Source: Verrucomicrobiota bacterium
GTDB lineage: Bacteria; Verrucomicrobiota; Verrucomicrobiia; Palsa-1439
Direction: 5' to 3'
DNA: 64,000 nt
NCBI GenBank assembly: GCA_003152315.1
Contig: PLZV01000003.1
Span: 62,159 to 126,158, forward strand
This document shows, in pieces, positions 23,100 to 55,000 of the stretch. Made by a program: the position numbers and the translations under genes. The notes under the pieces are model-generated. The model was not told the origin of the DNA and did no database searches. It worked only from the letters and a program-made list of their open reading frames with translations. Every line of letters begins with the position of its first letter. The stretch's first letter is position 1.

Positions 23100-23121
23100 A
23101 TCAGATCTGGACGACAACATC

Positions 23122-26310: not shown

Positions 26311-26325
26311 GCCAAACACATCCGA

Positions 26326-34602: not shown

Positions 34603-36642
34603 ATGAGCTTCCTGCTACATGCGATTGCTGGCAAAACGAGCCGGGTGCGCCTCTTGGTATTGCTGTTGGGGGTGACACTTGCCGCGACCGATGGTCTGGC
34701 GCAATCTTCCACAACCAGCAACGACTGGCAGGACCTCACGCTCGAACAATTGGTCAATGTGCAGGTCACCTCCGTGTCGAAGAAACAAACCGACTTGTTC
34801 AAGTCACCTGCCGCCATTTACGTGATCACGCAGGAGGACATTCGACGCTCCGGCCTGACCAGCATTCCCGAGTTGTTGCGGATGGTGCCGGGATTGGACG
34901 TCGCACGCATCGACGCGACCCACTGGGCGATCACTGCCCGCGGGTTCAACAATCAATTCGGGAACAAGCTGCTGGTACTCATCGATGGCCGCACTGTTTA
35001 CACCCCGGAATTCGGGGGCGTCTATTGGAATGTGCAGGATATGCCACTTGAAGACCTTGATCGGATTGAAGTCATTCGAGGTCCAGGGGCAACGCTCTGG
35101 GGAGCGAACGCCGTCAATGGTGTCATCAACATCATCACCAAAAGCGCCAAAGACACCCAGGGCGGCCTGTTGAGCGTCACTTATGGGACCGAGGATCAGC
35201 CCTCAGCGACTGTCCGTTACGGCGGCAAGATCGGTACGAATCTGTTCTATCGCGGCTATGTGAAGTATTTCAACCGCGAAGGCTTTGAGAATACCTCCGG
35301 TGCCGCTGAAAACGATGCCGATGCGACCCGCGGTGGTCTCCGCCTCGACTGGGAAGCGTCGGACATTAACCGGCTCACGCTTCAGGGGGATTATTACAAG
35401 AGCGATGCCAGCGAAACATTTGATGAAGCGCTGTTGACGCCCCCCTTTGTCAACACCGCCACCTTCACCAAGCCCGATGATGGCGGCAACATTCTTGGCC
35501 ACTGGACTCACGACTTCTCCGAAACCTCCCAGTTGACCTTGCAGATGTACTACGACTACCTGGAGCAGGGTGATGCTCCCATCACAGTTCGGGACGACAC
35601 GTACGATGTGGACCTGCAACATCGGTTTGCCCTGGGAGATCGCCAGGACATCGTCTGGGGACTCGGGTACCGCTATCAATATGAAGCTGTCACCACGAAC
35701 TTCTTCGTGTCGCTCACGCCGCCGGTCACGCATCAGACGATCTTGAGCGCGTTCGTTCAGGATGAGATCACGGTCGTTCAAGATCGTTTGCATCTGACGA
35801 TCGGTTCCAAGTTCGAACACAATGATTTCACGGGATTCGAGATCGAGCCGAGCGCACGCCTGGCCTGGACGCCCACGGAAAAGCAAACCGTCTGGGCGGC
35901 CATTTCGCGCGCGGTCAGGACTCCTACCTCGGTCGATCTGTCCATTCTCAATAACCGGTCAGCCTCTCAGCCTCCGTTGAGCCCACCGATCTTGATCTCT
36001 GTCGTTGGGAATCCGAATTTCAAGTCCGAGGAGCTTCTCGCCTATGAATTGGGCTATCGGGTCGAGCCGACCAAGCAGGTGTCGTTTGACGTAGCCGCGT
36101 TTTACAACGTGTATAACCGCCTCGAAGAATTCGTCCAGGGTACCCCTCAATTCGTAGGGACTCCTCTGCCCCCGCACTTGGTGATTCCCTTGGTGGCGGG
36201 AAACAACCAGCAGGGAGAAACCTATGGCGCCGAATTCCTGACGGAGTGGCAGGCTACCGCACATTGGAAATGGACCGCCAGCTACACCCTGCTCCAAATG
36301 CACATCAGCCCAAACACACCCGGCACGTCGATCAACAACGATAGTCCGCAGAACCAATTCCAAATCCGCTCGTACCTTGATCTGCCGCACAACGTCGAGC
36401 TGAATGGTGCGGTGTATTATGTTGACCAGGTCAGCCCAATCTTCGGCCTTGGCGAGAAGAGCATCCCTGCGTATGTCCGCCTGGATCTGGGTTTGACCTG
36501 GCGCCCCACCAAATCACTCGAGATCGGCGTTTGGGGCCAGAATCTTTTGGATGGTCAGCATCCGGAATTCACAAGCGAGAATAGCAGTGTCATCACCGAA
36601 ATCCCGCGCAGTGTCGTGGGGAAAATCACGTGGCATTTCTAA
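34603..36642 (+). CDS. TonB-dependent outer-membrane receptor
   Basis: 679 residues. After a signal peptide (LLVLLLGVTLAATDGLAQ) a short region, LTLEQLVNVQVTSVSKK, precedes the plug (about 55-165): AAIYVITQEDIRRSGLTSIPELLRMVPG, GFNNQFGNKLLVLIDGR and RIEVIRGPGATLWGANAVNGVINIITK are TonB-receptor plug signatures. The remaining 500 residues form the 22-strand barrel, ending with aromatic Phe (GKITWHF) for BAM recognition. It probably imports a large nutrient or works as a signal receptor. Substrate unknown; the genetic context with a YfiR-like protein and two kinases suggests signalling. ATG 34603 is chosen over TTG 34585. Confidence 0.9.
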   Translation: MSFLLHAIAGKTSRVRLLVLLLGVTLAATDGLAQSSTTSNDWQDLTLEQLVNVQVTSVSKKQTDLFKSPAAIYVITQEDIRRSGLTSIPELLRMVPGLDVARIDATHWAITARGFNNQFGNKLLVLIDGRTVYTPEFGGVYWNVQDMPLEDLDRIEVIRGPGATLWGANAVNGVINIITKSAKDTQGGLLSVTYGTEDQPSATVRYGGKIGTNLFYRGYVKYFNREGFENTSGAAENDADATRGGLRLDWEASDINRLTLQGDYYKSDASETFDEALLTPPFVNTATFTKPDDGGNILGHWTHDFSETSQLTLQMYYDYLEQGDAPITVRDDTYDVDLQHRFALGDRQDIVWGLGYRYQYEAVTTNFFVSLTPPVTHQTILSAFVQDEITVVQDRLHLTIGSKFEHNDFTGFEIEPSARLAWTPTEKQTVWAAISRAVRTPTSVDLSILNNRSASQPPLSPPILISVVGNPNFKSEELLAYELGYRVEPTKQVSFDVAAFYNVYNRLEEFVQGTPQFVGTPLPPHLVIPLVAGNNQQGETYGAEFLTEWQATAHWKWTASYTLLQMHISPNTPGTSINNDSPQNQFQIRSYLDLPHNVELNGAVYYVDQVSPIFGLGEKSIPAYVRLDLGLTWRPTKSLEIGVWGQNLLDGQHPEFTSENSSVITEIPRSVVGKITWHF

Positions 36643-37281: not shown

Positions 37282-39288
37282 ATGCGTCTGTTCCAAAACG
37301 CCTCGATCCAGCGCAAGCAAATGTTGGCCATCATGCTGACCAGTATTGTCGCACTCTTGCTGGCGTGCGCGGGGTTCATCACCTACGAGATCATGTCGTA
37401 CCGCACGGAACTGGTATGGAATCTCACGTCGCTGGCGCAGATGATCGGCGACACCAGCAGCGGGGCGCTCGACTTCAATGACCCCAAGCCCGCAGAAGAT
37501 ACCCTGTCGGCGCTCCGGGTGCGACCGAACATCGTCGCAGCGTGCATCTACACAAAGGATGGAAGCCCATTCGCAAAGTATGTTCGTAGCGACGTTGCCG
37601 CAGGCTTCTCGGTTCCGAAGCAGGAAGCGGATGGCCACCGGTTCACCTACGGTCGGCTGATTCTGTTCCACGGCATCGAGCAAAAGGGCGACAAGATCGG
37701 CTGGATCTACCTGGAATCCGACCTGGGGCGTTTGACGGCTCGGTTGAAAGAGTACGCAATGATTGTCATCGCCGTGGTGCTCGCTTCCATGTTGGCCGCG
37801 TTTCTCCTGTCGTCCAAGCTGCAACGGTGGCTCTCAGAACCGATCCTGCAGTTGGCCAAGACTGCCAGGGCCGTCGCACTTGAAAAGAACTATTCCCTTC
37901 GCGCAACCAAAAAAAACCAGGACGAATTGGGGATGCTGACCGACGATTTCAACGCGATGTTGAACCAGATCCAGCAACAAGATGCCGCGCTGCAGTCCGC
38001 CAACGAAAGCCTGGAAAAACGCGTCGAAGAGCGCACGCAGGAGTTGGAAAGTTCCCTCTCCCTTCTCCATGCCACCGTCGAGTCCACGGCCGACGGTATT
38101 CTTGTGGTGGATCGAAAGGGGAAGGTCGTGACGTACAATGGAAAGTTTGTGGCCATGTGGCTCGTCCCTGCGCCGGTCATCGTGTCTCGAAACGACGATG
38201 AACTGCTGGCCACCATGACCGATCAACTCCATAATCCGGAGGGATTCCTTCGCAAAGTGCGGGAACTGGACACGCATCCGGATGCCCCCAGCTTTGATTT
38301 GATTGAATTCAAGGATGGCAAGGTCTTTGAACGGTATTCGCAACCGCAGTACGTGAAACAAGAAATCGTCGGGCGCGTCTGGAACTTCCGGGACATCAGC
38401 GAACGCAAACAGGCCGAAGTGAAACTGGATAACCTTCACCGGCAACTGCAGGATGCATCACGGCAGGCGGGCATGGCGGAAGTGGCGACCAACGTGCTCC
38501 ATAACATTGGTAATGTGCTCAACAGCGTGAATGTCTCCTCCGCCCTGGTGTCCGAGCGGGTTCGGAAATCGAAGGCGGCGAACCTGAACAAGCTCGCCAT
38601 TTTGATCCAGGAACACCCGCATGACCTGGCGGCCTTTCTGACGAACGATCCGAAGGGAATGCAGGTGCCTGGCTACCTGGTCGGTCTCGCCGCGCAACTC
38701 ACCCAGGAACAAGCCGAGATGCTCAAGGAACTCCAATCTCTCGGCGCCAACATCGAGCACATCAAAGAGATCGTCGCCATGCAGCAAAACTACTCCAAGA
38801 TATCCGGCCTGACCGAGTCGCTCGCGGTGGTCGATTTGGTCGAGGACGCGATTCGCATGAATAACGCGGCGTTGGTGCGTCACGACGTGCAACTCGTCCG
38901 CGAATACTCTGAGACCTCGCCGGTGTTGGTGGAGAAACACAAGGTGCTGCAAATCCTCGTGAACCTGATCCGTAACTCCAAATATGCGCTCGATGAAAGC
39001 GGCCGCGCGGACCGGCGGGTGACGGTGCGCGTGGCCAAAAATGGCGGTGACTTCGTCCGCGTTTCGATCATCGACAATGGCGTCGGCATCCCCTCGCAGA
39101 ATCTGACGCGCATTTTTGAACATGGTTTCACCACCCGGAAGAACGGTCATGGATTTGGCCTGCACAGTGGCGCGCTGGCCGCCAGGGAACTGGGCGGGAC
39201 GTTGACCGCCTACAGCGACGGACCGGGAACGGGCGCCTCGTTTGTCCTGGAGTTGCCCGTAGTGCCGAAGGAGAGAACACATGACTGA
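37282..39288 (+). CDS. Membrane sensor histidine kinase (CHASE8-HAMP-PAS-HATPase)
   Basis: 668 residues. Transmembrane helices near 12-35 and 157-177 enclose a periplasmic CHASE8-like sensor of about 120 residues. HAMP (LSEPILQLAKTARAV then NYSLRATKKNQDELG) leads through a coiled coil (ANESLEKRVEERTQELESS) to a PAS domain (about 255-375). An atypical H-box, LHNIGNVLNSVNV, holds the phospho-His. The HATPase domain has LVNLIRNSKYAL (N box), DNGVGIP (G1) and GFGLHSGALAARELGG (G2). It starts one base after the YfiR-like stop and overlaps the hybrid kinase by eight bases. The signal may be sensed via the YfiR-like periplasmic protein. Confidence 0.88.
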   Translation: MRLFQNASIQRKQMLAIMLTSIVALLLACAGFITYEIMSYRTELVWNLTSLAQMIGDTSSGALDFNDPKPAEDTLSALRVRPNIVAACIYTKDGSPFAKYVRSDVAAGFSVPKQEADGHRFTYGRLILFHGIEQKGDKIGWIYLESDLGRLTARLKEYAMIVIAVVLASMLAAFLLSSKLQRWLSEPILQLAKTARAVALEKNYSLRATKKNQDELGMLTDDFNAMLNQIQQQDAALQSANESLEKRVEERTQELESSLSLLHATVESTADGILVVDRKGKVVTYNGKFVAMWLVPAPVIVSRNDDELLATMTDQLHNPEGFLRKVRELDTHPDAPSFDLIEFKDGKVFERYSQPQYVKQEIVGRVWNFRDISERKQAEVKLDNLHRQLQDASRQAGMAEVATNVLHNIGNVLNSVNVSSALVSERVRKSKAANLNKLAILIQEHPHDLAAFLTNDPKGMQVPGYLVGLAAQLTQEQAEMLKELQSLGANIEHIKEIVAMQQNYSKISGLTESLAVVDLVEDAIRMNNAALVRHDVQLVREYSETSPVLVEKHKVLQILVNLIRNSKYALDESGRADRRVTVRVAKNGGDFVRVSIIDNGVGIPSQNLTRIFEHGFTTRKNGHGFGLHSGALAARELGGTLTAYSDGPGTGASFVLELPVVPKERTHD

Positions 39289-41074
39289 TACTACCGGCAA
39301 GCAATCCGGTCCGGACAAAGGCCGACGCATTCTGGTGATTGACGACAACCGTGCCATTCACGACGATTTTCGCAAGGTTCTGTCCGCCACCAATCCCCAG
39401 CCCTCGGCACTGGCAGAGGCTGAGGCGGTGCTGTTCGACGAGAAACCCGACGCCGAACCACGTCCGTCTTTCCAGCTGGACTCGGCTTATCAGGGACAAG
39501 AGGGATTGGTTCTCGTGCAGCAATCGATCCAAAACCATCAGCCCTACGCGGTCGCGTTTGTGGATATCCGCATGCCGCCCGGTTGGGACGGCGTGGAAAC
39601 CACTCAAAAACTGTGGGAGGTCGACCCGGATCTCCAAGTCGTGATTTGCACGGCCTACTCGGACTACTCCTGGGACGAACTCATTCGCAAAGTGGGCAAC
39701 TCCGACCGCCTGTTGATTCTCAAGAAACCGTTCGACACCGTCGAAGTGCTGCAACTGGCCAATGCGTTGAGCGAGAAGTGGCGGCTGCATCGAAGAGTCA
39801 GGGCGCAAATGGGCGATCTGGAACGAACCGCGACCGAACGGACCCAGCAGCTCCAGGCAACCAATGACCAACTCGTGGTGGAAATCGCGGAGCACCAACT
39901 CAACAAGCAGCGACTGCAACAAGCCGTTGAAGATCTGAAGTCCGCCCGGGAGCAGGTCATTCAACAGGAACGGCTGCGCGCCCTCGGCAGCATGGCCAGC
40001 GGTATCGCCCACGATTTCAATAATTCCCTCGTCGGCATCCTCGGCTTGACCGAATTGTTGTTGAACCGGCCCGAGGACCTGGAAAACAAGGCCAAGGCCC
40101 GACACTATCTGGAGATGATCAACACCACAGCCAAGGACGCGGGTAAGATCGTCGATCGCCTGCGTGAATTCTACCGTTTTCGCGAGAAACGGGACGCGTT
40201 GGAGGCGATCGACCTCAACCTGCTCGTCGACGGCGCCATCACGCTTACGCAACCGCGGTGGAAGACGCAAGCCGAGACCCGAAACATCTCCATCACCATA
40301 CAACGAGATCTTCAGGAAATTCCGAAGGTAACCGGCAACATTGCGGAGTTACGGGAAGTGTTGACCAATTTGATCTTTAACGCGATCGACGCGATGCCCT
40401 TGGGCGGGAATATCACGATCCGCACGTATGACAAGGGCGACCAGGTCGTGCTCGAAGTGAGCGACACCGGCCACGGCATGACCGAAGAGATTCGCCGCCG
40501 CTGTTTCGAACCGTTTTTCACGACCAAAGGCACGCATGGCACCGGTTTGGGATTGTCCATGGTCCATGGAATTGTGCAACGCCATCAAGCCACCATCGAG
40601 GTCAAGAGCGAAGTCGACAAGGGCTCAACTTTTATCATCCGATTCGCGCCACAGTCCGTGCCGGCGCAAACCGTGTCCCCGCTGCAACCTAACACCACTC
40701 TCCAAAATCTGCGTGTCCTCTTGGTGGACGATGAACTGATGGTCCGCACGATCATCGGTGAGTATCTGGCCATTGACGGACACGCGGTGGAGACCGCGGA
40801 CGGCGGACGCGACGGGGTTGAAAAATTCGGCAAAGACCAGTTCGACCTTGTGGTGGTGGACCGTGCCATGCCCGATATGAATGGCGACCAGGTCGCCACC
40901 GCCATCCGGTCCGTCAACCCGAGCGTGCCGATCGTTATGCTTACCGGTTTCGGCTCGATGATGGAGGCCAACGGTGAGAGACCTGAGGCCGTTGATCTCG
41001 TCGTCGGCAAACCAGTAACGATTGTCGATTTGCGAGCGGCCCTGTCAAAAGCCGTTGCTGCCCACGCCGCCTAG
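39281..41074 (+). CDS. Hybrid histidine kinase, REC-HisKA-HATPase-REC
   Basis: 597 residues without membrane segments. N-terminal receiver (about 10-165) with RILVIDDNRAIH and phosphoacceptor Asp in VAFVDIRMPPGWDG, ending KKPFDTVEV. A coiled coil leads to the H-box MASGIAHDFNNSLVGIL, with HATPase motifs NLIFNAIDAMP, DTGHGM and GTGLGLSMVHGIVQ. The C-terminal receiver (about 470-595) has VLLVDDELMVR, LVVVDRAMPDMNG and the Lys in GKPVTI. It could take phosphate from the membrane kinase and relay among its own receivers. No DNA-binding output domain exists, so a downstream regulator elsewhere is needed. It ends convergently with the respiratory operon. Confidence 0.9.
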   Translation: MTDTTGKQSGPDKGRRILVIDDNRAIHDDFRKVLSATNPQPSALAEAEAVLFDEKPDAEPRPSFQLDSAYQGQEGLVLVQQSIQNHQPYAVAFVDIRMPPGWDGVETTQKLWEVDPDLQVVICTAYSDYSWDELIRKVGNSDRLLILKKPFDTVEVLQLANALSEKWRLHRRVRAQMGDLERTATERTQQLQATNDQLVVEIAEHQLNKQRLQQAVEDLKSAREQVIQQERLRALGSMASGIAHDFNNSLVGILGLTELLLNRPEDLENKAKARHYLEMINTTAKDAGKIVDRLREFYRFREKRDALEAIDLNLLVDGAITLTQPRWKTQAETRNISITIQRDLQEIPKVTGNIAELREVLTNLIFNAIDAMPLGGNITIRTYDKGDQVVLEVSDTGHGMTEEIRRRCFEPFFTTKGTHGTGLGLSMVHGIVQRHQATIEVKSEVDKGSTFIIRFAPQSVPAQTVSPLQPNTTLQNLRVLLVDDELMVRTIIGEYLAIDGHAVETADGGRDGVEKFGKDQFDLVVVDRAMPDMNGDQVATAIRSVNPSVPIVMLTGFGSMMEANGERPEAVDLVVGKPVTIVDLRAALSKAVAAHAA

Positions 41075-41083: not shown

Positions 41084-42472
41084 CTAGAAACCCAGGTCTT
41101 CGCCTTTTGGCTTCAGGCTGAAGAGGTAGGCAACCAGGTCGTCAAGTTCGGCGTCTTTGATGGTGCCGCGCCACCCGGGCATGTAAAGCGGAGGCGCTGG
41201 CTTGGATGCATCCAGGGATGTGATTTCGTGCTGACCGTTGAGGATCCGCTTGAGAATCTCGTCCTTCGTGTAGCTATCGGCGACGTACTTGAGACTGGGG
41301 ATCTGCTGGGCGGTCTTGGCATTCGGATTCGGCACGCCGCCTTGAGCGTTGGGGCCATGACAACCCGCGCAGCCGTATTTGCGGAAGACCTCGCGCCCAC
41401 GCTCGACGGGGCCCATCAACGACGGGAGGCTCAGCGCCACCTTTTGCTCGCGCAAGTGCATCAAGAAATCGGTCAACGACCGCGCCTCGGCCTCGGTGAA
41501 GCCGAATTTCGGCATCACCGTGCCGGGGGTGACCACCTGCGGGTCTTTGAAATGCGCCACAATCCAGTCCGGCGCGCGGCGCAGACCAACGTCATCCAAC
41601 GCCGGGCCGACGGTACCGCCCTTGCCGCCGAGCGAGTGGCAGCCGATGCAGCCCTTCTGTTGGAACAGGCGCTGGCCTTCATCGGGACTGGCGATGACTT
41701 TCATCGAGGCGTAATAGCCCGGCACCATCTCACCGGTCTGGCTGAGCATGAACAGCGTGATCGCCTCCAGCTCCGGCTCAGAGAACTTCTGCGGCGGCAT
41801 CCCCGATCCGGGGCTGACGGCGGCCGGCGACAGGAAATGTTTCTTCAACCACTCGGACGAGCGGCGCGCGCCGACCTTGTCGAGGTCCGGTCCAATGATG
41901 CCGCCGGTGCCGCCCAGTTTGTGGCAGCCGCGGCATCCACTGTCCTCAAAAATCTGCTGGCCGCGCGCCAACTCCGGCGCCGCCGGATTATCGGCGGCTT
42001 GATGGCACTTACCGCAGGATGCCTGAATGTACATCAATGGCAACATCGGTTCGTCCCAGTGCGGCACGTTCCCGTGCGCGGCGGCGGCAGTCGTGGCGCG
42101 GCCCTGGCCACGATGGCAGATGGTGCACCCGAACTTTTCCGACGGATGCTGCTCGTGTAATGGGTGATACGCCAGCGGCTGCGGATAGCCGCCGTAGGTT
42201 GGATCGTCCACGGCCAGATGGCAGGTCGTGCAACGATCCACGCGGTTAAGTTCCGGCAGAATGATTTGGTGGACCTGCACCGGCGTGCTCTCGGCGCGCG
42301 CGCGCTGCTGGGGCGTTATGGCGCGGCGAACTTCTTCGCGGATAAATTTGCGTTGGAAATCCTTCCACTCACGAAACTGGTCCTTGTAATAGCCGCCGAC
42401 AACCAGGCAACCGACAACGATGCCCAGCATCGTGAACCATGGGTAAAATTTACGGACCGACTCGTTGGCCAT
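41084..42472 (-). CDS. Membrane-anchored hexahaem cytochrome c
   Basis: 462 residues. One N-terminal transmembrane anchor (WFTMLGIVVGCLVVGGYY) and six CxxCH haem sites: CTTCH, CTICH and CGKCH in the first third, then CRGCH, CIGCH and CAGCH, each opening a mono-haem cytochrome c domain with a Met-containing segment (GSGMPPQ, GTVMPKF, LYMPGW) as likely axial ligand. It is the last gene of the operon, one base after the cytochrome b stop, so it probably serves as the cytochrome c1-equivalent of this bc complex, passing electrons to periplasmic cytochromes. Haem count is large compared with the one of classical cytochrome c1. Confidence 0.9.
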   Translation of the reverse strand: MANESVRKFYPWFTMLGIVVGCLVVGGYYKDQFREWKDFQRKFIREEVRRAITPQQRARAESTPVQVHQIILPELNRVDRCTTCHLAVDDPTYGGYPQPLAYHPLHEQHPSEKFGCTICHRGQGRATTAAAAHGNVPHWDEPMLPLMYIQASCGKCHQAADNPAAPELARGQQIFEDSGCRGCHKLGGTGGIIGPDLDKVGARRSSEWLKKHFLSPAAVSPGSGMPPQKFSEPELEAITLFMLSQTGEMVPGYYASMKVIASPDEGQRLFQQKGCIGCHSLGGKGGTVGPALDDVGLRRAPDWIVAHFKDPQVVTPGTVMPKFGFTEAEARSLTDFLMHLREQKVALSLPSLMGPVERGREVFRKYGCAGCHGPNAQGGVPNPNAKTAQQIPSLKYVADSYTKDEILKRILNGQHEITSLDASKPAPPLYMPGWRGTIKDAELDDLVAYLFSLKPKGEDLGF

Positions 42473-42473
42473 G

Positions 42474-43760
42474 TCAGTGGCTCTCCGTCGCCACTGGCGG
42501 CTTCTTCCAGGGTTCCTGCCACGACCAGTTGGGGCCGCGGAAAAAGCTGCCGATGATCGTCAATACGATCGCTACGAAGAGGCAAATGCTAAAAATGGTG
42601 TTGGCGAGAACGCGTTCACGGGCGAACCAGCGGCCGGTGCCACGGCGTTGCCGGTCCACATAGGGCAGGAGCACCAGCGTCACCACCAGCAACGTCGGCA
42701 CACCGACCCCGCCCCAGAAGGCCGAGTGCGCCACCAGTTCCTGCAGGCCAAGGAAATACCAGGGGGCCTTCGCGGGATTCGGCGGATGAATCGGGTTGGC
42801 GAATTGCTCCAGGGGCGCGTTCCAGCCGATGGCCAATACCAGCAGGACCGCGACGACAAACATAAACAGCAGCATCTCGCGGAACACCAGATGCGGCCAG
42901 GAGAAGACCTCATCTTCGGGGTTCGCGCCGACTTGCGGCGTGGTGCCGCGGGCGAGTTCCATCAAGCCATAGGTTTTGTTCGTTGGCAAATGGCTTAACT
43001 CGACCTGCGCGACAACATTGCCCGGCTCATCGGGACGCGACAGACCACCGTCTTTGCGGACGCGCCAGAGGTGGACGGCGACCATCAGGATCGTCACCGC
43101 CGGCAGTACCATCACGTGGAGCGCGTAAAATCGGATCAGCGCCGGCTGTCCAACGACATTGCCGCCCAGCATCAGGAATTTCAACTTCGGCCCGACGATG
43201 GGTGCGTACCCGGAGATGTTCGTCCCGACGGTGATGGCCCAGTACGCGAGCTGGTCCCACGGCAGGAGATATCCCGTGAACGACAAGCCAAGCGTCATCA
43301 GCATCAACGCCACACCGAGCACCCAGTTGAACTCGCGTGGCGGCTTGTAGGCGGCCGTGTAGAACACCCGGCAGAGGTGCAGCACCACGAACAGGACCAT
43401 CAAGTGCGCGGCCCAGCGGTGCATGTTGCGGATGAGCTGGCCTGCGGACACCACGAACTCCAGGTCCTTCATGGACTCGTACGCCCGCTCGGTGCTCGGC
43501 ACGTAATAAAACATCAGCAACACGCCCGTGCCGATCAGGATGAAGAACAGATAGAGGGTGATTAGTCCGAGGCCGAACGAATACGATGCGCGCAAGGAGT
43601 GCTTGTTGACCTTGGCTGGCTGCAGGTGCAGCAGGAAGCTGGAAACCATCACTTGCGACCGCTCCAGGTTACTGTCCGGGAGGCCGACGCGGAAGATCGA
43701 GCGGCCGATGCGTGTCCGCTGGAACTTTTGCCAGAGCTGTTTGAGTGGGGAGGCGTTCAC
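42474..43760 (-). CDS. Cytochrome b of a bc-type complex
   Basis: A 428-residue polytopic quinol oxidase subunit. [20 protein letters not shown] and [20 protein letters not shown] supply the paired histidines for two b haems; [17 protein letters not shown] is the conserved loop near the Qo site; [12 protein letters not shown] corresponds to the PEWY Qo motif (here APWY). About eight or nine helices are present, so the b6 and subunit IV parts are fused as in bc1. It overlaps the Rieske stop by four bases. N-terminal 45 residues are hydrophilic. It should oxidise quinol and pass electrons to Rieske and the b haems. Confidence 0.93.
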
Positions 43761-44227
43761 AGGACGAAATATTGTTCGGGAGCCGTTGGCTGGCCCTTAT
43801 CAATCAGGAGGCGGCCATCCTTGCTCAGGGTCACCAGAAACCAGGTGAGCGCGCGCGGTGCCGGGCCGCCCTTGACGGTGCCTTGATCGTCAAACACACT
43901 TCCGTGACACGGGCAATGAAAACCGTTCTCGGCGCGGTTGACTGTGCAACCGAGATGGGTGCAAACCGCCGACAGACACCGAAACGTGTTGCCCTTGCGG
44001 ATGAGGAAGACGCGTTCGTCCTCAAGAAACGTCACCGATCCATCGGGATAGTCCTCGGGTTTGTCGGCCTTGAATTGCTCGCTCGGCTCGAACAACACAT
44101 TCGGCACCAGAAAACGCACGGCGGCCACCGCAGACGCGCCAAAGGCGAACAACCCGGCCAGCCAGCCGAGAGAAAGTTGGAAGAATGCGCGGCGGGAAAC
44201 TCCATTGCCGGGTGTGGGATCGTTCAT
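43757..44227 (-). CDS. Rieske 2Fe-2S protein
   Basis: 156 residues. A Tat-type signal [19 protein letters not shown] anchors it and the fold has the two Rieske boxes, CTHLGC and CPCHGSVFD, that bind the 2Fe-2S cluster through two Cys and two His. The cysteines in both boxes also provide the disulphide of bc1/b6f-type proteins. It starts three bases after the flavoprotein and overlaps cytochrome b, giving the order flavoprotein-Rieske-cytochrome b-hexahaem cytochrome. Confidence 0.93.
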
Positions 44228-44230
44228 AAA

Positions 44231-46153
44231 TCAAACCGGCAGCAGTTCAATGCGCTCCATCATCACAGCACCGGTTGGACAGCGGGCGGCGCAAAGGCCA
44301 CAGCGGATGCAGCGCGTTTCGTCCTTGATGATCGCACCATGTTCGCCGGGTTCGGGCATGCGTCCGTAGCGGGCCACGAACGCGCTCTGCAGCTTCTCGT
44401 CACCGCGCAGGCTGGCCACATCCACCAGGCGCAAGCAGAATTCAGGACACACGTCGGCGCAGCCGCCGCAGAGAATGCACTTGTCGCCGTCGAATACCGG
44501 GCTGATGTGGCATTTCAGGCAGCGAACCGCCTGCTCGACGGCGGCCGGTTCCGGATACCCTTTTTCGACCTCGGCGATTCCGATCCGCCGGTCCAGCGGC
44601 AACGTCGGCGGCGAGTGCCGCGCCAGCTTCTCGTAGTCGGGCTTCATCCGGTATTGGTCAGGGTTATAAACCGTCACCCGCGCTCGTTGGGGCTCGGCGG
44701 GGACGCGGCCGGTGAGGAATTTGGTGATCGACCGCGCGGCTTTCTGGCCTTCGGCAACGGCCGTAATGATGATGCGCGGGCCAAACGCGACGTCGCCACC
44801 CGCAAAAATGTCCGGGCGCGACGTGGCCATTGTCTGCGGATCGGTTTGCAGCGCGCCGCGCGGGGTAAGCTTGAGATTGTCCTCCGGTTTAATCCACGCG
44901 AGATCGGCGGATTGTCCGATGGCCAGCACCACGGTGTCACAATCCACGATTTCTTCGCTACCCTCAATGAACGACGGGCTGAATCGGCGGTTTTCGTCGA
45001 ACACACGGCTGGCTTTGATCAATTCGATGCCGCGCACCTTGCCGTCCTCACCGAGGACCCGCTTCGGCCCAAAACGTGTATGGAGTCGGATGCCTTCGCG
45101 CTCCGCCTCTTCGATCTCTTCACGGGCGGCGGGGATCTCATCGACGTTCTCGAGGCAATACATATGGACTTCCGGCACACCTTTGCGAATCGCCTCGCGG
45201 GCCACGTCCAGGGCGAGGCGCACCTCGTCGGGCGCTTCCGGCTCGCGCGCGGTCAATTGTTCCAGCGCCGAAGCCGCCTGATGCAAAGCGCCGCGCAGTT
45301 CCGCCTCGCTCATGCCGGCGAGTTTTTCCGTCTGCCGGAGCACCGAGCGCGCGACATCGAACGCGACGTTGCCGCCACCGATGACAACAACTTTGCGGCC
45401 GAGCGTGACCCGGTAGCCGAGATTGATGTTCAGCAGAAAATCGATCGCGCGGAGCACGCCATCCAATTGCACGCCTTCGATGGCGAGTTCGCGGCTTTTG
45501 TGCGCGCCGATGCCGATAAAGATCGCTTCGTATCCCTGCCGCTTCAGGTCTTCGAGCAGGAACTCCCGGCCCAGTTTCTGGCCGAGCCGGATTTCGACGC
45601 CCAGCGATTCAATGGCCTTGATCTCCGCCTGGATGATCTCGCGCGGCAGCCGGTACTCGGGCACGCCAAGCACCAGCATTCCACCCGCCACGTCGTGGGC
45701 CTCGAATACCGTCGCGGAGAAACCCAGCAACGCCAGTTCGTGCGCGCACGACAATCCCGCGGGCCCGGCGCCGATGACGGCGACCTTGCGTCCGCCGCCA
45801 ATCCGATCACGATTCGGGTCGCGGAGCGCGGGGTACACGCGGTCGAGATCGAACTGGTCCGACTCGACACCGAACTTCTCGCAGACAAACCGTTTCAGGG
45901 CGCGGATCGAGACGGTTGCATCCAGCGCTCCGCGGCGGCACTTCGCTTCGCACGGCGCGGCGCAGACCCGGCCGCAGATCGAGGCGAACGGGTTTGGCGC
46001 GCGGGCGATGATGTAGGCGTCCTCGTAGCGTCCCTCGGCGACGGCCTGGACGTAGGCTCCCGAATCGGTACGCACGGGGCAGCCTTCGCGGCAAAGCACC
46101 TGCCGCGTGAAGTAGGTCAGGTCAGGCACTTCGACTGTGTAAGTCTGGGACAT
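44231..46153 (-). CDS. GltD-like FAD/NAD(P) oxidoreductase with Fe-S clusters
   Basis: 640 residues. The N-terminal Fe-S domain has CREGCPVRTDSGAYVQ and ICGRVCAAPCEAKC; an FAD-binding fold follows with VAVIGAGPAGLSCAHELAL, and the NAD(P)-binding fold has VVVIGGGNVAFDVARSVLR. LAIGQSADLAWI and FAGGDVAFGPRIIITAVAEG are late FAD motifs. The C-terminus adds two [4Fe-4S] ferredoxin sets, CILCGGCADVCPEFC and CIRCGLCAARCP. GltD normally feeds NADPH electrons to glutamate synthase; here no GltB is present and the gene sits inside a bc-complex operon, so it may link NAD(P)(H) with quinol or ferredoxin. Confidence 0.9.
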   Translation of the reverse strand: MSQTYTVEVPDLTYFTRQVLCREGCPVRTDSGAYVQAVAEGRYEDAYIIARAPNPFASICGRVCAAPCEAKCRRGALDATVSIRALKRFVCEKFGVESDQFDLDRVYPALRDPNRDRIGGGRKVAVIGAGPAGLSCAHELALLGFSATVFEAHDVAGGMLVLGVPEYRLPREIIQAEIKAIESLGVEIRLGQKLGREFLLEDLKRQGYEAIFIGIGAHKSRELAIEGVQLDGVLRAIDFLLNINLGYRVTLGRKVVVIGGGNVAFDVARSVLRQTEKLAGMSEAELRGALHQAASALEQLTAREPEAPDEVRLALDVAREAIRKGVPEVHMYCLENVDEIPAAREEIEEAEREGIRLHTRFGPKRVLGEDGKVRGIELIKASRVFDENRRFSPSFIEGSEEIVDCDTVVLAIGQSADLAWIKPEDNLKLTPRGALQTDPQTMATSRPDIFAGGDVAFGPRIIITAVAEGQKAARSITKFLTGRVPAEPQRARVTVYNPDQYRMKPDYEKLARHSPPTLPLDRRIGIAEVEKGYPEPAAVEQAVRCLKCHISPVFDGDKCILCGGCADVCPEFCLRLVDVASLRGDEKLQSAFVARYGRMPEPGEHGAIIKDETRCIRCGLCAARCPTGAVMMERIELLPV

Positions 46154-46182
46154 GGTGCCGTTCCACTTCTCAGCCGGGACGA

Positions 46183-46656
46183 CTACTTGTCGTATAGATC
46201 GTGGACTTCCTTGATTTTGCCCTCAGCAGCCTTCTTCTCGTCCGGCGTTACCTTCGCCAGCTTCTCGTCGACCATCGCCTTCTTGCGGACGCTGGAGTCA
46301 TAGACGAGGAACTCGTAGATTTCCTTTCCTTCGGCGGCGTTGATGCCGGAGCCGGGCTTGTGCATCATGCGTTTGACGTAGCGTGACCATTCGTCCGGCA
46401 GCGCGTAATCGGAGTTGATCGGCCGGCTGAGCTTGTGGCACTGCGTGCATTTCTGGGAGAACACCTCGTAGTTCGCCTTGATCCCGTCGGGATACTTCGA
46501 GATGTCAACGGTTGCCGGGCCTTTCTCGAAGCGCTCGACGCGGGCCTTGGTTTCGGCGTCGAGTGGCGCGTCAGCCGCGCGCGCGACGCCCACGCCGATC
46601 AGGGCGAGCGCAGTCACACCCGCGAGGATAGTTGCGAGTTTATTGATCATTAACAT
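46183..46656 (-). CDS. Monohaem cytochrome c
   Basis: 157 residues with a signal peptide (ILAGVTALALIGVGVARA) and one CTQCH haem site near residue 72; MMHKPGSGI may supply the axial Met. The C-terminal 40 residues are very lysine-rich and helical. It lies 19 bp after the porin and 29 bp before the flavoprotein gene. AAGGA lies upstream of ATG 46656; ATG 46650 is an alternative. It is probably a periplasmic electron carrier for the complex. Confidence 0.85.
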   Translation of the reverse strand: MLMINKLATILAGVTALALIGVGVARAADAPLDAETKARVERFEKGPATVDISKYPDGIKANYEVFSQKCTQCHKLSRPINSDYALPDEWSRYVKRMMHKPGSGINAAEGKEIYEFLVYDSSVRKKAMVDEKLAKVTPDEKKAAEGKIKEVHDLYDK

Positions 46657-46675
46657 GAATGGTGTTTCCTTTCGT

Positions 46676-48022
46676 TTAGAACCCGTAGGAGAGTTGGAAG
46701 ATCAGGTTGTTATTCGCCTGCGAGTGATCGCTGCAGTTGACGAACTCGTAGTCACCCTCGAACCACAAGGTGTTGGTAATGTAGTAGACGTAGCCTGCCG
46801 TAAGCCGCCCCGTCCGCGTGCCGAGTCCGTCGTTCTTCGTGTCGTAGCGGCCTACCAGCTCGAGGCTGTTGATCATCGGGAAATCGAGTTCCAGCCCGGC
46901 CAGCTTGTAACCGGCCTGGACCCACCAGCCGCGTGGCGTAAACGTCCCGTGGTCGGTGCTCTGGACCCAGGTGTTGACATACTCGCCTTTGACTTCAAAA
47001 TTCGGGCTGAGATGCATCGCGCCGTCGAACACGAACGCCGACCACAATTTGTTGTCCATGTCGTTCCACGTGCCGGACTGGCCGGAGACACCGAGTTCCA
47101 CGTCCGAATGGGCCTGCCACGGGAAGAACCAGCCAACACGACCGCCCGCGCTGGGTGAGCCGTGCAGATTCATGGTTCTGCCATCCGCGGTGAGACCGAC
47201 GTTGCCGCCGAGATCGAGCTGATCGGAAGTAGCGGTGCCATCGGAAGAACTGGGGCCATTCACGCCGTACACCGCGTACGTAACCGCCTGTCCCGAATCA
47301 CCCACCGGCATCGCGCCCCGCAATTGCAGGCCGACGCCGGCCCCCGGCAATACGTCGCGCGGGAGCGGACTGTCCGGCATCTTGTTGAGCCAGCCGGCAG
47401 AGCGCTCGGAATAAGTGCCCAACGGCAACAGCATGTCGCCGGCGACCACTGTCACGTAGTCGTTGAACAGATAGTCCAACGTGCCGAAGCTGAGACTTAC
47501 CGAATTTCCCGAGCCGCTGTCGTGGGTGCCGAGCGGGTTGCTACCATTCTGCAGGACGACATCGAAGCCCGCCTCGAACAGGATCTTGTCCGTCGCACGG
47601 AACAGGAAGATTGGCGCGAAATCAGCCAGCGCGAAGGCGCTGTGCTGGCCCTCGGTCTTGGCAAATTGAACCTCGGCGTCACCGACGACCATGAAGTTCT
47701 GTAGCGCGTCCGGCCCGGTCGCCGCCGGCGTCTTGGCGCTGGCCTCGGCGGACGCGGCGGTCTGCTGGGCTTCTTCGGCTTTCTTCTGGGCCGCCTCGGC
47801 CTTCTGTTGCGTCTCGGTCGTGGTCTTCTGCGTAACGCCCTGTTGTTCTTTCAGTTGCTGGATTTCCTGCCGATCTTCTTGATGCGCTTTCTGCAGGTCC
47901 TGGATCTGTTGGGACTGTTGCTGCATCTGCTGTTGCATCTTCTGGAAGTCCTCATCGCTCACTGCCAGAGCGGAGGCGCAGCCGATGGTTAAGGCCGTCA
48001 AAATTAAGAAATAAGTTTTCAT
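46676..48022 (-). CDS. Outer-membrane porin with N-terminal coiled coil
   Basis: 448 residues. A signal peptide (YFLILTALTIGCASALA) is followed by a Gln-rich coiled coil (about 25-100; QQMQQQSQQIQDLQKAHQE and repeated EAAQKKAEEAQQ), then a beta-barrel of about 330 residues with alternating aromatic strands and terminal Phe (FQLSYGF). LFNDYVTVVAGDMLLPLG and SERSAGWLNKMPDS are typical of LbtU/carbohydrate-porin-like barrels. The coiled coil may span the periplasm or bind peptidoglycan. Position between cytochrome genes suggests passage of a substrate or acceptor of the respiratory chain, rather than iron uptake as in LbtU. The frame extension to 48193 is rejected. Confidence 0.8.
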   Translation of the reverse strand: MKTYFLILTALTIGCASALAVSDEDFQKMQQQMQQQSQQIQDLQKAHQEDRQEIQQLKEQQGVTQKTTTETQQKAEAAQKKAEEAQQTAASAEASAKTPAATGPDALQNFMVVGDAEVQFAKTEGQHSAFALADFAPIFLFRATDKILFEAGFDVVLQNGSNPLGTHDSGSGNSVSLSFGTLDYLFNDYVTVVAGDMLLPLGTYSERSAGWLNKMPDSPLPRDVLPGAGVGLQLRGAMPVGDSGQAVTYAVYGVNGPSSSDGTATSDQLDLGGNVGLTADGRTMNLHGSPSAGGRVGWFFPWQAHSDVELGVSGQSGTWNDMDNKLWSAFVFDGAMHLSPNFEVKGEYVNTWVQSTDHGTFTPRGWWVQAGYKLAGLELDFPMINSLELVGRYDTKNDGLGTRTGRLTAGYVYYITNTLWFEGDYEFVNCSDHSQANNNLIFQLSYGF

Positions 48023-48042
48023 CAGTTTGATCTTTCCGTGGC

Positions 48043-48342
48043 CTATTTGCCGGCGTCTTCCTGGAGGTACTTGAGAATTTCTTTTGCCTGTGCGGCTGGT
48101 ATCTGTGCGCGGGTGCGCATGTGCAGCATCAGCGTCTTCCACTGTGCCGGCGTCCGCTCCGTTGCGTAACGTTCGGCGTGGCAGCGATTGCAATTGATGG
48201 CGTACAACTCCTGACCCGTGAGTTTCTTCTTTACCGGTTTGGCATCGCCGTTAGCGGCGAAGGCGGATGCGCTGATGACCACTGCTGCCGCAACGACGGC
48301 AACGACACCCGCACACAGGTGTAGAGAGCGGAATCGGTTCAT
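48043..48342 (-). CDS. Small periplasmic cytochrome c
   Basis: A 99-residue protein with signal peptide (VVAVVAAAVVISASAFA) and one haem site CNRCH; the line LYAINCNRCHAERYATERTP and MLHMRTRAQIPAAQAKEIL give the likely axial Met. An excellent Shine-Dalgarno (AGGAGG) precedes ATG 48342. It is the first structural gene of the operon, 137 bp after the regulator, and close in type to electron-shuttle cytochromes. Confidence 0.88.
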   Translation of the reverse strand: MNRFRSLHLCAGVVAVVAAAVVISASAFAANGDAKPVKKKLTGQELYAINCNRCHAERYATERTPAQWKTLMLHMRTRAQIPAAQAKEILKYLQEDAGK

Positions 48343-48479: not shown

Positions 48480-49370
48480 TCACATAGCCAACGGCGAGCG
48501 CAGCGTGGCCCGGTACTGCGTGGGCGGCATCCCGACATAGCGCTTGAACATGCTGTTGAAGCTCGGGATCGATCCGAAGCCGGCCGCGTACACAACCTCG
48601 CTGATGCGCAGCGACGGATCCACCAGCAACGTTTTGGCCTTTTCCACGCGAACCCGCGCCACGTATTCGGTGAGCGTCATGCCGGTCGCCTTCTTGAAGA
48701 GTTTACAGAAGTAAAACGGGCTGACGTGAACGTGCTGCGCCACCTGTGCCAGCGTCACGGGCTCCTCGACGTGGGAATGAACAAACTCTTTGGCCGAGAC
48801 CACCACCGCCGGCTCCTCGGAGGACCTGGCGATCGCACAGCGGCTGGCATAGTCGGCCAGGTACTGCGCGAAAACGTTCAGTAATTCGACGATCGCCTGG
48901 AACCTTTCCGCAGCGACCACGGGGGTCTCGAAATAGGCCCGCCGCGCTCTTTTCTCCCAGTCGCTGTTCGGCGCACCGTTGAGCATCTTGACGACCATCG
49001 TGAAGTCCCGCTGCGTTGGTTCGCGGCGCAAGACGTGTCCGCTGAGCAACGTCGCCACGTGCCGTCCGCCGATAGCCACGGGCACGGCGACGATGGTAAG
49101 GCCGGCAAAGCAATGGATCTGTTGCGGGGTGAGTTTTCGCGCGGCGCTGCGGCGGACGCGCCCTTCCTCCTGCCGGCACGCCTCACAGCCCGCCGGTGTA
49201 TGGGACACCAGGGCGCAAAACGGGTTTTCCGATGCCCCAAAGGAGAGCTGTTTTCCGTGATCGTCAGGCGGGACAACCTTCAGAGACACACCCGTTGCCT
49301 TACGAAAAGCCGTCTCGTAATACTCGACGACAGGCAGCTTCGCCAAATCATCAAAGGCCACTTGCTTCAT
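48480..49370 (-). CDS. PocR-AraC family transcriptional regulator
   Basis: 296 residues. The N-terminal half (about 5-165) is a PocR sensory domain: FCALVSHTPAGCEACRQEE holds the conserved Cys cluster and IHCFAGLTIVAVPVAIGG the ligand fold. The C-terminal 100 residues carry two AraC helix-turn-helix units, VTLAQVAQHVHVSPFYFCKLFKKATG and VVYAAGFGSIPSFNSMFKRYVG in text split here by a helix. PocR domains respond to small hydrocarbon derivatives such as 1,2-propanediol. It is transcribed towards the cytochrome operon. ATG 49370 marks the start of the PocR domain; no ribosome site is clear. Confidence 0.85.
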   Translation of the reverse strand: MKQVAFDDLAKLPVVEYYETAFRKATGVSLKVVPPDDHGKQLSFGASENPFCALVSHTPAGCEACRQEEGRVRRSAARKLTPQQIHCFAGLTIVAVPVAIGGRHVATLLSGHVLRREPTQRDFTMVVKMLNGAPNSDWEKRARRAYFETPVVAAERFQAIVELLNVFAQYLADYASRCAIARSSEEPAVVVSAKEFVHSHVEEPVTLAQVAQHVHVSPFYFCKLFKKATGMTLTEYVARVRVEKAKTLLVDPSLRISEVVYAAGFGSIPSFNSMFKRYVGMPPTQYRATLRSPLAM

Positions 49371-49488
49371 GTGTCGGAAACCAACCAGCCACGTTGTGCG
49401 CTGCAATTGAGGGTCATTGTAGCGCACGCGCGTTGTCCCTGTCACTCCTGTAGTGACGGCTGATCGATTGCGACTGAATCCCCGTTCG

Positions 49489-50364
49489 TCAGTAATCCGG
49501 GGCCAGTTCCAGCGCCTGAATGCGCTCACGTCCGTTCAAGTCGAAGAATGCGTGAAAAATCTCCAACGCCTGCTCTCGTGCGCAGAGTCCGCGCTTCACG
49601 TAAGGCCAGGCGTTTACTTCGGTCTCCCTCACGACAATTTCGCCGTCGTGCACGAGCTTTGGCAGCGATGAACGACTGGGCCACGAGGCCAGTTCCGCAT
49701 TGAGCGCGCGCGCGGACGGCACGAGCACCGTAAGTCGTTTGCGCCCCAGATGACTTAACGCGGCGAGGCGGTGCTGGCCGTTGTAGCGCATGGCGCGGTA
49801 CTCACCATTACGGCGCACCAGCAGGGTTACTGTGGGTAATTGGGCAGCGCGCAGTGGATGGTATCCGCCGCGAAGTTTGTTGAATAATCGGCGAGTCTTT
49901 TCCCATTCCAACCGCAACGGAGACGGGTCGCCGGGCTCGTACCAGACGTTGGCACGAGGGCCGTACATGTCGCGCGTCGAATTGCCGGTGATCTGATCGA
50001 AGTGATGACCCCACGGCCCGCCGCCGACCTGGTCGCCTCACGGATAGGTGGCGAGGGCGAACTGGAACCCGCAATCGCGTTGCGCGGGCTTGTGCAGGAA
50101 GAGCAGATCGTTCAAGTAACGCACCGACTTCACGCGCGGGTGCTGAAAGAAACGGTAGAACGCCGAATCCTCCAGTTGAAGTTGCGGTTGGCCCTGCTGC
50201 TGGGCCACCAGCGCGCGGAAATAGTTCCAACCATCGTCGGCAAACGAAAACGCGAATTCGTTCGTGATCCACTTCAGCGGAACCCGCCGCAACGTTCCGG
50301 AGCGAAGGTACTGCACCCGCCGCGCCATCGCGCGTGCCGCCCGGATCGGAAGGTTTTCCGCCAT
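49489..50364 (-). pseudogene. ParB-like protein gene interrupted by an in-frame TGA
   Basis: Two adjacent open frames, 50364-50038 and the frame through 49968 to 49489, are in the same phase and separated only by TGA at 50040-50038. The 23 codons after the stop (GDQVGGGPWGHHFDQITG and on) read as normal protein, so this is one protein of about 290 residues with a premature stop. The C-terminal half has AMRYNGQHRLAALSHLG, like the ParB/sulfiredoxin-fold GxHRxxA motif, so a nuclease-like or phosphotransfer fold is possible. It may be a nonsense pseudogene, a sequencing error, or a read-through gene. The N-terminal 108 residues may still be made. Confidence 0.75.
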
Positions 50365-52045: not shown

Positions 52046-55000
52046 ATGAAGACGCGATTTCTCGCCATCCTTTTCTTCTTTGCGGTCAACGGACTGGCGG
52101 CGGAGCCACGCCATCCTGCGGTGATCACCTCCGCGTTCATCAACGAGCACGCCCCGTATCCGGAGTGCCATGCTTCGACCATCGTTGAGGTGGCGCCCGG
52201 CAAACTGGTCGCGGCGTGGTTCGGTGGCACGCGCGAACGCGCGCCCGATATTGGTATCTGGGTGGCGCGACAAGAAGGGGGAAGCTGGCTCGACGCGGTC
52301 GAAGTTGCCAACGGTCTGCAGCCGGATGGCACCCGCCTCCCGACATGGAATCCTGTGCTATTTCACCCAAAAGACGGCCCGCTGGTTTTGTTCTACAAGG
52401 TCGGGCCTTCGCCGAGTGCGTGGTGGGGGATGATGATGACCTCCGTCGATGGCGGGAAAGGTTGGAGCAAATCGGTGCGGCTGCCAGCGGGTGTGCTGGG
52501 GCCGATCAAGAACAAGCCGGTGCTTCTGGCCGACGGCACGTGGCTGTGTCCGTCGAGCACTGAAGGCGGGGAAGCGGGTTGGCAAGTGCATTTTGAACTC
52601 GCGCACGACGCAGGCCGGACCTGGGAGATCATCGGGCCGGTTGAAAAGGGAAACAAATTGGACGCCATCCAGCCGAGCGTGCTTTTCCACCGCGATGGCC
52701 GGTTGCAGGCCCTTTGCCGCACGCGCAACGGCGTGATCGCCACCACGTGGTCGAGTGACGGGGGAAAAAAATGGAGCCCATTGGAGGCGGTTGGTTTGCC
52801 CAATCCGAATTCCGGCATCGATGCCGTCACGCTGGCCGACGGCCGCCAGTTGCTGGTTTACAATCATTCCGCGCCGCCTGCGGATCGTCCAACGAAAGGC
52901 GTTCGTTACCCGCTGGACGTGGCGATTTCGCCTGACGGCGTGAAATGGCAGCACGTTCTCACGCTGGAAGACCAGCCGAGCGGCAATGGCTATGCTTATC
53001 CCGCCGTCATCCAAACATCCGACGGCCTGGTGCACATCACCTACACGTGGAATCGCCAGCATATCAAGTACGTGGTCCTCGATCCGAAACAACTCGGATC
53101 GGGAGGAGAGCAGACAAATTCCAACACGGATCTTCGTGTTACGAATCTGAAATGCGAATTCGCCACAGACCCGCTCGGGGTCGACGTCGCGCAGCCGCGA
53201 TTGTTCTGGTGTGTAGCGAGCGACGAACGCGGTCAGCGGCAGACCGCGTGGCAGGTGCTGGCTGCGTCATCCGCCGAGATTCTCGCGCAAGATCGGGGCG
53301 ATCTGTGGGACAGCGGGCGCGTTGCTTCGGATGAAACAACGTTTGTGCGTTATGCGGGCGCGCCGCTCACGTCGTCACAAAGGGTGTTTTGGAAGGTGCG
53401 GGCCTGGGACCGCGACGGACGCGCCACCCCGTGGAGCGCGAACGCGACGTGGACGATGGGGTTGCTCAAGACGGCGGATTGGAAGGGGAGTTGGATCACT
53501 TCGCCGGGCGCGACCGAGTCGTTACTACTGCGCCGCGAATTTTCCGTGCGACCGGGATTGCGCCGCGCGGTGGCGTATGTTTGCGGGCTGGGACAATACG
53601 AACTCGATTTCAACGGCGCGAAGGCCGGCGAGGACCTGCTCGCGCCGGGGTGGACCGATTACGAACGCACGACGCTCTACGACACACACGACGTGACGGC
53701 GTTGTTGCACGAGGGCACCAACGCCGTCGGGATCATCCTCGGTAATGGCATGTATAACGTTGTTCGTCGAAACCGCTATGTGAAATTCACCGGCTCCTTC
53801 GGCCCGCTGCGCGCGATTCTGCATTTGCGGCTCGAATATGCCGACGGTACCGCGGAAGTCGTCGGCACCGATTCGACGTGGCGCGCTCTGGCGGGGCCGC
53901 TCACCTTCAACAATATCTACGGTGGGGAAGATTACGACGCCCGGCTCGAACCGGCGGGCTGGACGAAGGCAGACTTCAACGACGGCGCGTGGCCGCACGC
54001 GGTGGCGATGGTGCGGGCCGGCGACACATTGCGCGGCCAGAGTGTTGCGGCCGAGCCGTTGCGGGCGATCGAGACGCGGCAGCCCATCGCTTCACAGACG
54101 TTTCCTGACGGCAGTGTTGTGTACGATCTCGGCCAAAACGCCTCGATGATGCCGCGCCTCCGCGTGAGCGGACCGGCGGGCAGCACCGTGCGGCTCACGC
54201 CCGCCGAGGTGGTCAATGCCGATGGCACGATCAATCGCAGCACGATGGGAGGCGCGAGCCGCGGCAGTTCCTGGTGGCAATACACCAAGGCGACGGATGG
54301 CGAAGAGACATGGTTCCCGAAATTCTTCTACGTGGGGTGCCGGTATTTGAAGGCGGAGTTTTTTTCGGCAAATGCCGGCGAAACGAATACGCTGCCGCGA
54401 ATCGAATCGGTCGAGGATGTCATTGTGCACTCGAGCGCCGCGCCGCTCGGCCATTTCGCCTCGTCGAACAATCTGCTGAACCGCATCCGCGACCTTGTGC
54501 GCTGGGCACAGCGGTCGAACATGGTTTCCATCCTGACCGACTGTCCGCACCGTGAAAAGCTTGGCTGGCTCGAACAGTATCATCTCAACGGCCCGGCGAT
54601 ACGGTACGAGTTCGATGTCGCGCGCATTTTCAGCAAGGGCGTGCACGACATGGCCGAGGCGCAGACGGAGGACGGCTTCGTGCCGACCACCGCGCCGGAA
54701 TACACGAAGTTTAAGGGCGCTTTCCGCGCCGCGACGGAGTGGGGTTCGGCGTTCATCCTCGTGCCGTGGCAGCAATACCAATTCACCGGCGATCTCGACC
54801 TGTTGCGCGCGCACTTTGACGCGATGAAACATTACTTCGCCTACCTCGAAACACGCGCGACCGACGACATCGTGTCCGAGGGACTGGGCGACTGGTATGA
54901 CCTCGGCCCGAAAAAGCCCGGCGCGGCACAGCTGACGCCGCCGCCGGTCACCGCCACGGCGTTTTATTTTTACGATGCGACGATTCTCTCGCAGGCAGCC

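Follow-up and report, generated by a model that had tools for sequence, protein, structure and literature searches.

A stretch of 64,000 nucleotides from a Verrucomicrobiota bacterium (contig PLZV01000003.1, positions 62,159 to 126,158; hereafter the window) carries seven tightly packed genes on its minus strand, at 48342-41084. In transcription order they encode a small secreted cytochrome (c99), an outer-membrane porin, a second secreted cytochrome (c157), a flavoprotein, a Rieske protein, a cytochrome b and a hexahaem c-type cytochrome. All seven had been named in a first-pass annotation of the DNA, and open reading frame positions, domain models and CxxCH counts place them where it had put them. 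Our comparisons support the view that the last four genes encode a variant of the anammox-type NAD(P)-linked Rieske/cytochrome b complex. We propose, with about an even chance of being right, that it is a menaquinol-bifurcating complex with an NAD(H) arm, and that the cassette of c157, c99 and porin forms a link from the periplasmic face of the complex to the outer membrane. What appears new here, as supported by gene order and alignments, is the extension of the anammox-type core to many phyla and the wiring of this same core to different electron partners.

A widespread Rieske/cytochrome b core with a flavoprotein

Relatives of the core were collected by their flavoprotein from the source phylum (388 genomes) and from a named genome collection (80 loci listed). 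The resulting sample, among the matches listed, comprises 89 distinct loci, 71 of them with more than 4.5 kb of downstream sequence. Rieske and cytochrome b genes directly follow the flavoprotein gene in 71/71 of these, and a multihaem cytochrome c accompanies them in 70; the remaining locus (L116) either lacks one or had it overlooked by the simple gene caller. The core spans about 15 named phylum-level lineages and is found in the cultured Geothrix terrae, Geothrix campi and Anaeromyxobacter terrae, while the remaining names rest on metagenome bins. Within its own phylum it is patchy, most of the 388 genomes being without it. This gene-order survey bears out the earlier association of the flavoprotein with the complex, and supports the flavoprotein as a probable constant part of it.

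We consider it very improbable that the flavoprotein is a soluble enzyme in its own right that shares the operon, with the Rieske protein, cytochrome b and hexahaem c running an ordinary Q cycle. Such an arrangement would suit the retention of all four b-haem ligands in cytochrome b and the existence of sister complexes of the same b6 subfamily that lack a nearby flavoprotein gene. Against it stands an adjacency that holds in 71/71 loci, through about 15 phyla and five or more kinds of partner genes; moreover, same-family flavoproteins with no Rieske/cytochrome b in the available downstream sequence, as in the shorter loci L061 and L086, are rare. The available sequence of another locus (L058) stops inside the flavoprotein. 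No nearby Rieske/cytochrome b was found at 18 other GltD-like loci, a weak control with short flanks.

The flavoprotein (44231..46153, minus strand, 640 amino acids) is GltD/NfnB-like and contains PF14691, PF07992 (Pyr_redox_2) and two C-terminal Fer4 domains. Its closest relatives in the Protein Data Bank (PDB) are the GltD-containing chains 9bov and 9n5u and NfnB (4ylf). Four [4Fe-4S] sites are predicted from its motifs, and their cysteine sites are conserved in 87-89 of the 89 aligned relatives. With the NfnB/GltD flavoproteins (4ylf, 6s6s, 9n5u) it shares an N-terminal double [4Fe-4S] domain and the flavin adenine dinucleotide (FAD) and pyridine-nucleotide domains. It differs from them in that its Cys segment is circularly permuted to the C-terminus, where two further [4Fe-4S] sites are expected, and in a glutamate at position 335 of the window protein, where they carry an NADPH-binding arginine. 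This residue sits where the second strand of the nucleotide domain ends. In Rossmann folds, an acid at this position favours NAD(H) and an arginine favours NADP(H). Because the alignment places Glu in 89/89 core flavoproteins and Arg in 16/17 other GltD-like proteins of the phylum, the arm is predicted to be NAD(H)- rather than NADP(H)-specific. NAD(P) or ferredoxin had initially been suggested as acceptor: the nucleotide arm stands, narrowed to predicted NAD(H), and ferredoxin was rejected, as the operon holds no supporting gene.

Comparison with the complexes of anammox bacteria

Two Rieske/cytochrome b complexes of Kuenenia stuttgartiensis (Kuste4569-4574 and Kustd1480-1485) have been proposed to form NAD(P)H by quinol bifurcation, a mechanism that is unproven there as well (PMC12954380). 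The Rieske protein of the window (43757..44227, minus strand, 156 amino acids; PF00355, CTHLGC...CPCHGS-V-F) has its best matches among all PDB sequences in 9rk4 (1.7e-22) and 9rk3 (4.6e-18), the next reaching 5.2e-14. By molecule name, date and the publication (PMC12954380), these two crystal entries fit the Kuenenia Rieske subunits Kuste4569 and Kustd1480, in agreement with the anammox comparison drawn in the first-pass annotation. The measured potentials of the Kuenenia Rieske proteins exceed +300 mV (Hauser et al. 2025, PMC12954380). A potential-raising serine is kept in all 63 matched Rieske sequences and the corresponding tyrosine mostly is not (14); the window protein has Phe at the Tyr position, and Kustd1480 likewise lacks the Tyr.

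The likeness extends beyond the Rieske protein. Both systems have a b6/subunit-IV-like membrane part, a gene for a predicted cytoplasmic NAD(P) oxidoreductase alongside, and a multihaem protein instead of cytochrome c1/f, which is hexa- or octahaem in Kuenenia and hexahaem in the window. The latter protein (41084..42472, minus strand, 462 amino acids; Cytochrom_C/Cytochrome_C7) has its six CxxCH motifs at residues 81, 116, 153, 180, 275 and 368 and one N-terminal membrane anchor (hydrophobic segment 8-29). Models of the Kuenenia oxidoreductase contain FAD and four [4/3Fe-4S] clusters, comparable to the FAD domain and four predicted sites of the window flavoprotein.

In contrast to the separate b6 and subunit IV proteins of Kuenenia, the window cytochrome b (42474..43760, minus strand, 428 amino acids, GTG start; PF00033/PF00032) fuses a b6-like half to a subunit-IV-like half. 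The latter has 3 hydrophobic segments, compared with 5 helices in Kuenenia and in G004, another genome with the core. The window further differs in its gene order (flavoprotein-Rieske-b-c, plus the c157/c99/porin cassette), in the predicted preference of its arm for NAD(H), and in having neither an HAO-like octahaem protein nor the cysteine for haem cN. The Kuenenia cytochrome b plus flavoprotein is not among the 80 loci listed from the named genome collection. We found no paper on this core in such operons outside anammox bacteria, in a search that covered subscription journals thinly and in which absence is no proof.

The window cytochrome b conserves the b-haem ligands His114, 128, 215 and 230, has an invariant Arg235-Lys236 pair, and its Qo motif reads APWYF. 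A fifth histidine (His45), which closely precedes the first membrane helix, is invariant in 76/76 readable sequences, at a position where b6 has Lys; it is a candidate ligand of the interfacial haem proposed for Kuenenia (His43/His62, PMC12954380). As an exclusive signature of the NAD arm His45 was rejected, since split b6-type cytochromes without a nearby flavoprotein share it. Gly63 replaces Cys35 of b6, which binds haem cN covalently, and the Cys is missing in 76/78 aligned sequences. Among the cytochromes used as controls, it is kept only in the closest sister b6 type (L145, L148, L149, L161). Its loss was likewise rejected as specific to the NAD arm, canonical cytochrome b controls being without the Cys too.

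Two further known systems resemble parts of the operon. Compared with the ext clusters of Geobacter, the cytochrome b halves score 274.7 bits for ExtP (cut-off 290) and 76.9 bits for ExtQ (cut-off 150), and the hexahaem c scores 83.9 bits for ExtS (cut-off 100), so that the window proteins remain below all NCBIfam equivalog cut-offs; the b halves are, in addition, fused. An ext cluster also contains a porin (ExtI, PMC5877670), a likeness of gene content. Hein et al. 2017, as cited in PMC11409646, reportedly describe Rieske/cytochrome b genes in nos operons of clade II. The window operon differs from these in having no nos genes, although relatives of its core adjoin nosZ-nosD.

Operon structure and interchangeable partner cassettes

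The intergenic gaps of the seven genes are, in transcription order, 20, 19, 29, 3, -4 and 1 nt, and since they are this short, one transcript is likely. A strong ribosome site (AGGAGG) precedes c99, and the hexahaem c gene is followed after 9 nt by the end of a converging gene. In G013, a genome from another family of the same class, the seven-gene order is identical, with proteins 58-80% identical and the regulator kept. Because this order is conserved while the flanking genes change, an operon is very likely. Beyond G013, too, there are loci with the full order, the porin and the two small cytochromes included. From spacing and conserved order, the cotranscription first suggested is thus likely, while promoter and terminator scans of the operon gave nothing usable. 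A PocR-domain/AraC-type gene (48480..49529, minus strand; PF10114 and HTH_18) lies 137 nt upstream of c99 and is the probable regulator. At least six further Verrucomicrobiota loci (L012, L043, L044, L053, L058 and L091) have this regulator ahead of the cassette.

The first three genes form a cassette. c99 (48043..48342, minus strand, 99 amino acids) has a single CxxCH, CNRCH at residue 51, and weak matches to CcoP/QcrC cytochrome domains and TorC/SorB models. c157 (46183..46656, minus strand, 157 amino acids) also has one CxxCH, CTQCH at residue 70. Profile matches (3a9f, 2.8e-7, and 7uea, 4.2e-7) liken it to the haem domain of PscC from green-sulfur bacteria (cyt cz), which carries electrons from menaquinol:cytochrome c oxidoreductase to the photosynthetic reaction centre (PMC11108878). 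The porin (46676..48022, minus strand, 448 amino acids) lies in a 505-amino-acid reading frame that begins too early, its likely start being MKTYFL. Its sole PDB sequence match is OprP (2o4v, E 0.0048). The AlphaFold2 model comprises an N-terminal coiled coil (long helix 23-90) and a barrel of 16 strands, with a predicted local distance difference test score of 69.5, and Foldseek matched it to 16-stranded porins including OprO.

This cassette was found in eight of the listed loci, from Verrucomicrobiota, Binatota and Acidobacteriota, c99 being conserved with the porin there. Other relatives of the core have other partners. A large group lies directly upstream of nosZ-nosD (clade II nitrous oxide (N2O) reductase), NosZ (nos_propeller and CuA) being accompanied by NosD and NosF; others adjoin a COX1-family oxidase, molybdo-enzymes, or NrfC/NrfD with a tetrahaem c. 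A further partner type consists of single-haem cytochrome-porins, mostly alongside a cupredoxin-like protein. Partner types cluster on the flavoprotein tree, with 23 changes compared to 51 in shuffles (quick method). The porin had originally been read as an addition to the operon that hints at an external substrate or acceptor: it is present in the operon, but it stands outside the general core, in one of several partner cassettes that can take each other's place.

Several loci of the core showed particular arrangements. L013:5205-18326 (G004) encodes flavoprotein, Rieske protein, a 531-amino-acid cytochrome b with two extra membrane helices and a heptahaem c. After these come genes for a molybdopterin enzyme, for an Fe-S beta subunit and for a haem protein of the EB_dh type (ethylbenzene dehydrogenase gamma-like). 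At L047:7351-11172 (G305), two different GltD-like flavoproteins adjoin each other between two Rieske/cytochrome b-type gene sets.

The cytochrome-porins next to the core invite comparison with Cyc2, defined by PxFAR[QK][TY] before CxxCH plus a PxL motif and modelled on an OprO/OprP barrel (PMC8406198). Of these neighbours, 10/33 have the strict motif, 32/33 a relaxed form and 32/33 the PxL motif. The barrel model of one of them (L065) is of low confidence and has about the same number of strands as the window porin. In five acidobacterial loci (L097, L098, L100, L107, L132), 'PSYARQTG..CxGCH' cytochrome-porins lie downstream of the core and match the classical Cyc2 motif more closely than does the 'FSRKY' type found upstream. 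L043 and L091, which group with the window cassette on the tree, keep c157 and have a fused cytochrome-porin instead of c99 and porin, and the same is true of L060 and L117 further out. This is evidence that a fused cytochrome-porin may functionally replace c99 and porin; common descent is not claimed. The window pair resembles Cyc2 in its 16-stranded OprP/OprO-type barrel with a single-haem cytochrome adjoining, and differs in a porin free of CxxCH or haem and in the absence of the Cyc2 haem-domain motif from c99 and c157. We therefore regard c99/porin as at most a functional analogue of Cyc2. A split Cyc2 by descent was rejected, given the missing motif and the weak match of the barrel profiles (probability 28%).

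From these likenesses one might also read the cassette as working inward, with c99 and porin, like a split Cyc2, passing electrons from Fe(II) or a soluble donor via c157 to the hexahaem c, and the complex partly reversed by the proton-motive force. The stand-in by fused cytochrome-porins with c157 kept, the Cyc2-like motifs of the neighbours and the shared barrel class all speak for such a flow. We nevertheless judge it improbable: neither c99 nor c157 carries the motif, the match between the barrel profiles is weak, and most other core partners are electron sinks. Moreover, reversed bifurcation consumes NADH and would not supply it from Fe(II).

Proposed mechanism and energetics

In the bifurcating mechanism that we favour, the flavoprotein would be the cytoplasmic NAD(H)-linked FAD/[4Fe-4S] arm of a membrane-bound Rieske/cytochrome b complex, and menaquinol would be oxidised at the periplasmic site. 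The first electron would pass through the Rieske protein, hexahaem c and c157/c99 to an acceptor located at the outer membrane or outside it, the cassette with its porin connecting the periplasmic side of the complex to that membrane. The second would take haems bP and bN, perhaps an extra interfacial haem on His45, and then the Fe-S chain and FAD to NAD+. We infer complex formation, NAD+ as acceptor, bifurcation, its direction and the outer-membrane role of the cassette.

By our own arithmetic from standard potentials, moving an electron from menaquinol (-80 mV) to NAD+ (-320 mV) needs a partner electron above about +160 mV. N2O, O2 and nitrate exceed this value, Fe(III) oxides at near-neutral pH in most cases fall short of it, and bifurcation to NAD+ is thus feasible for the nos, oxidase and molybdo-enzyme versions of the core. 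The position of the core beside such strong acceptor enzymes (clade II NosZ, haem-copper oxidase, molybdo-enzymes) argues for bifurcation, and the likeness of c157 to the electron carrier of menaquinol:cytochrome c oxidoreductase is, by analogy, consistent with it. For the Kuenenia mechanism, unwanted quinone reduction at haem cN has been named as a difficulty (PMC12954380); because the cN cysteine is absent here, that difficulty would shrink. The proposed model also draws on the constant adjacency of the flavoprotein, Rieske and cytochrome b genes, the kinship of the Rieske protein to those of Kuenenia, the invariant Glu335, the conserved cluster sites and His45 as a candidate haem ligand.

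Several points weigh against bifurcation in the window. Its feasibility there depends on the final acceptor. The spacing from His45 to the Arg is 190 in the window and 204 in Kuenenia, and His45 also occurs in b6-type cytochromes with no nearby flavoprotein (L145, L148, L149, L167). Finally, the host looks like a sugar-degrading heterotroph with complex I, in which a need for quinol-derived NADH is not obvious.

The main rival, which we think unlikely, runs the complex in the opposite direction: the arm would oxidise NADH and cytochrome b would reduce menaquinone on the cytoplasmic side, giving an NADH:cytochrome c oxidoreductase that pumps via a quinone loop. This flow is downhill with any acceptor and needs no special energetics, and the predicted NAD(H) specificity, the reversible chemistry of GltD/Nfn-type enzymes and the heterotrophic gene content would all suit it. 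Yet complex I of the host would do the job with more pumping, the ground on which the same direction was dismissed for Kuenenia (PMC12954380), and it needs no high Rieske potential as seen in Kuenenia. Because the host encodes complex I, haem-copper oxygen reductases and many glycosidases, neither making nor oxidising NADH is obviously needed.

Genomic neighbourhood

Elsewhere in the window, dnaA is located at 12975-14327, and the regions 20272-28218 and 52046-55801 encode GH1, two GH5 and a GH78-type rhamnosidase. From its glycosidases, the host looks like a plant-polymer degrader. Positions 30552-36642 hold the gene of a 1099-amino-acid fn3/DHOR di-haem peroxidase-like protein and, after it, that of a TonB-dependent receptor, and downstream of these genes two sensor kinases (37282-41074) converge on the operon. 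A second unusual Rieske/cytochrome b cluster is present in the same genome (L161, G000:C11:139000-158900). It encodes COX1, a cupredoxin-like protein, an octahaem c (1188 amino acids), SUIV-like, b6 and Rieske proteins, a HEAT protein, a ferredoxin with several [4Fe-4S] sites, [NiFe]-hydrogenase subunits and a 1113-amino-acid NuoF/GltD fusion; its b6 has the extra His together with the cN Cys.

Significance

A broader and more tentative reading, which we rate as somewhat unlikely, is that these loci represent a widespread, largely unrecognised class of bifurcating complexes with a constant NAD arm and plug-in periplasmic partners (N2O reductase, haem-copper oxidase, molybdo-enzyme or cytochrome-porin). 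In the window version, electrons that leave through the porin and its separate small cytochrome, as a two-protein counterpart of Cyc2, would drive quinol-to-NADH electron transfer. If bifurcation is true, NADH made straight from quinol by a bc-type complex would cut across the division that textbooks draw between complexes I and III. So far, such complexes have been considered chiefly in anammox bacteria, whose cultivation is difficult. Because the three cultured species of Geothrix and Anaeromyxobacter named above carry the core, some of it directly upstream of N2O reductase genes, the question can be put to the test in organisms that grow in culture, and the loss of the cN cysteine together with the strict Glu335 gives simple sequence predictions. 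The answer would bear on energy saving by N2O-reducing bacteria.

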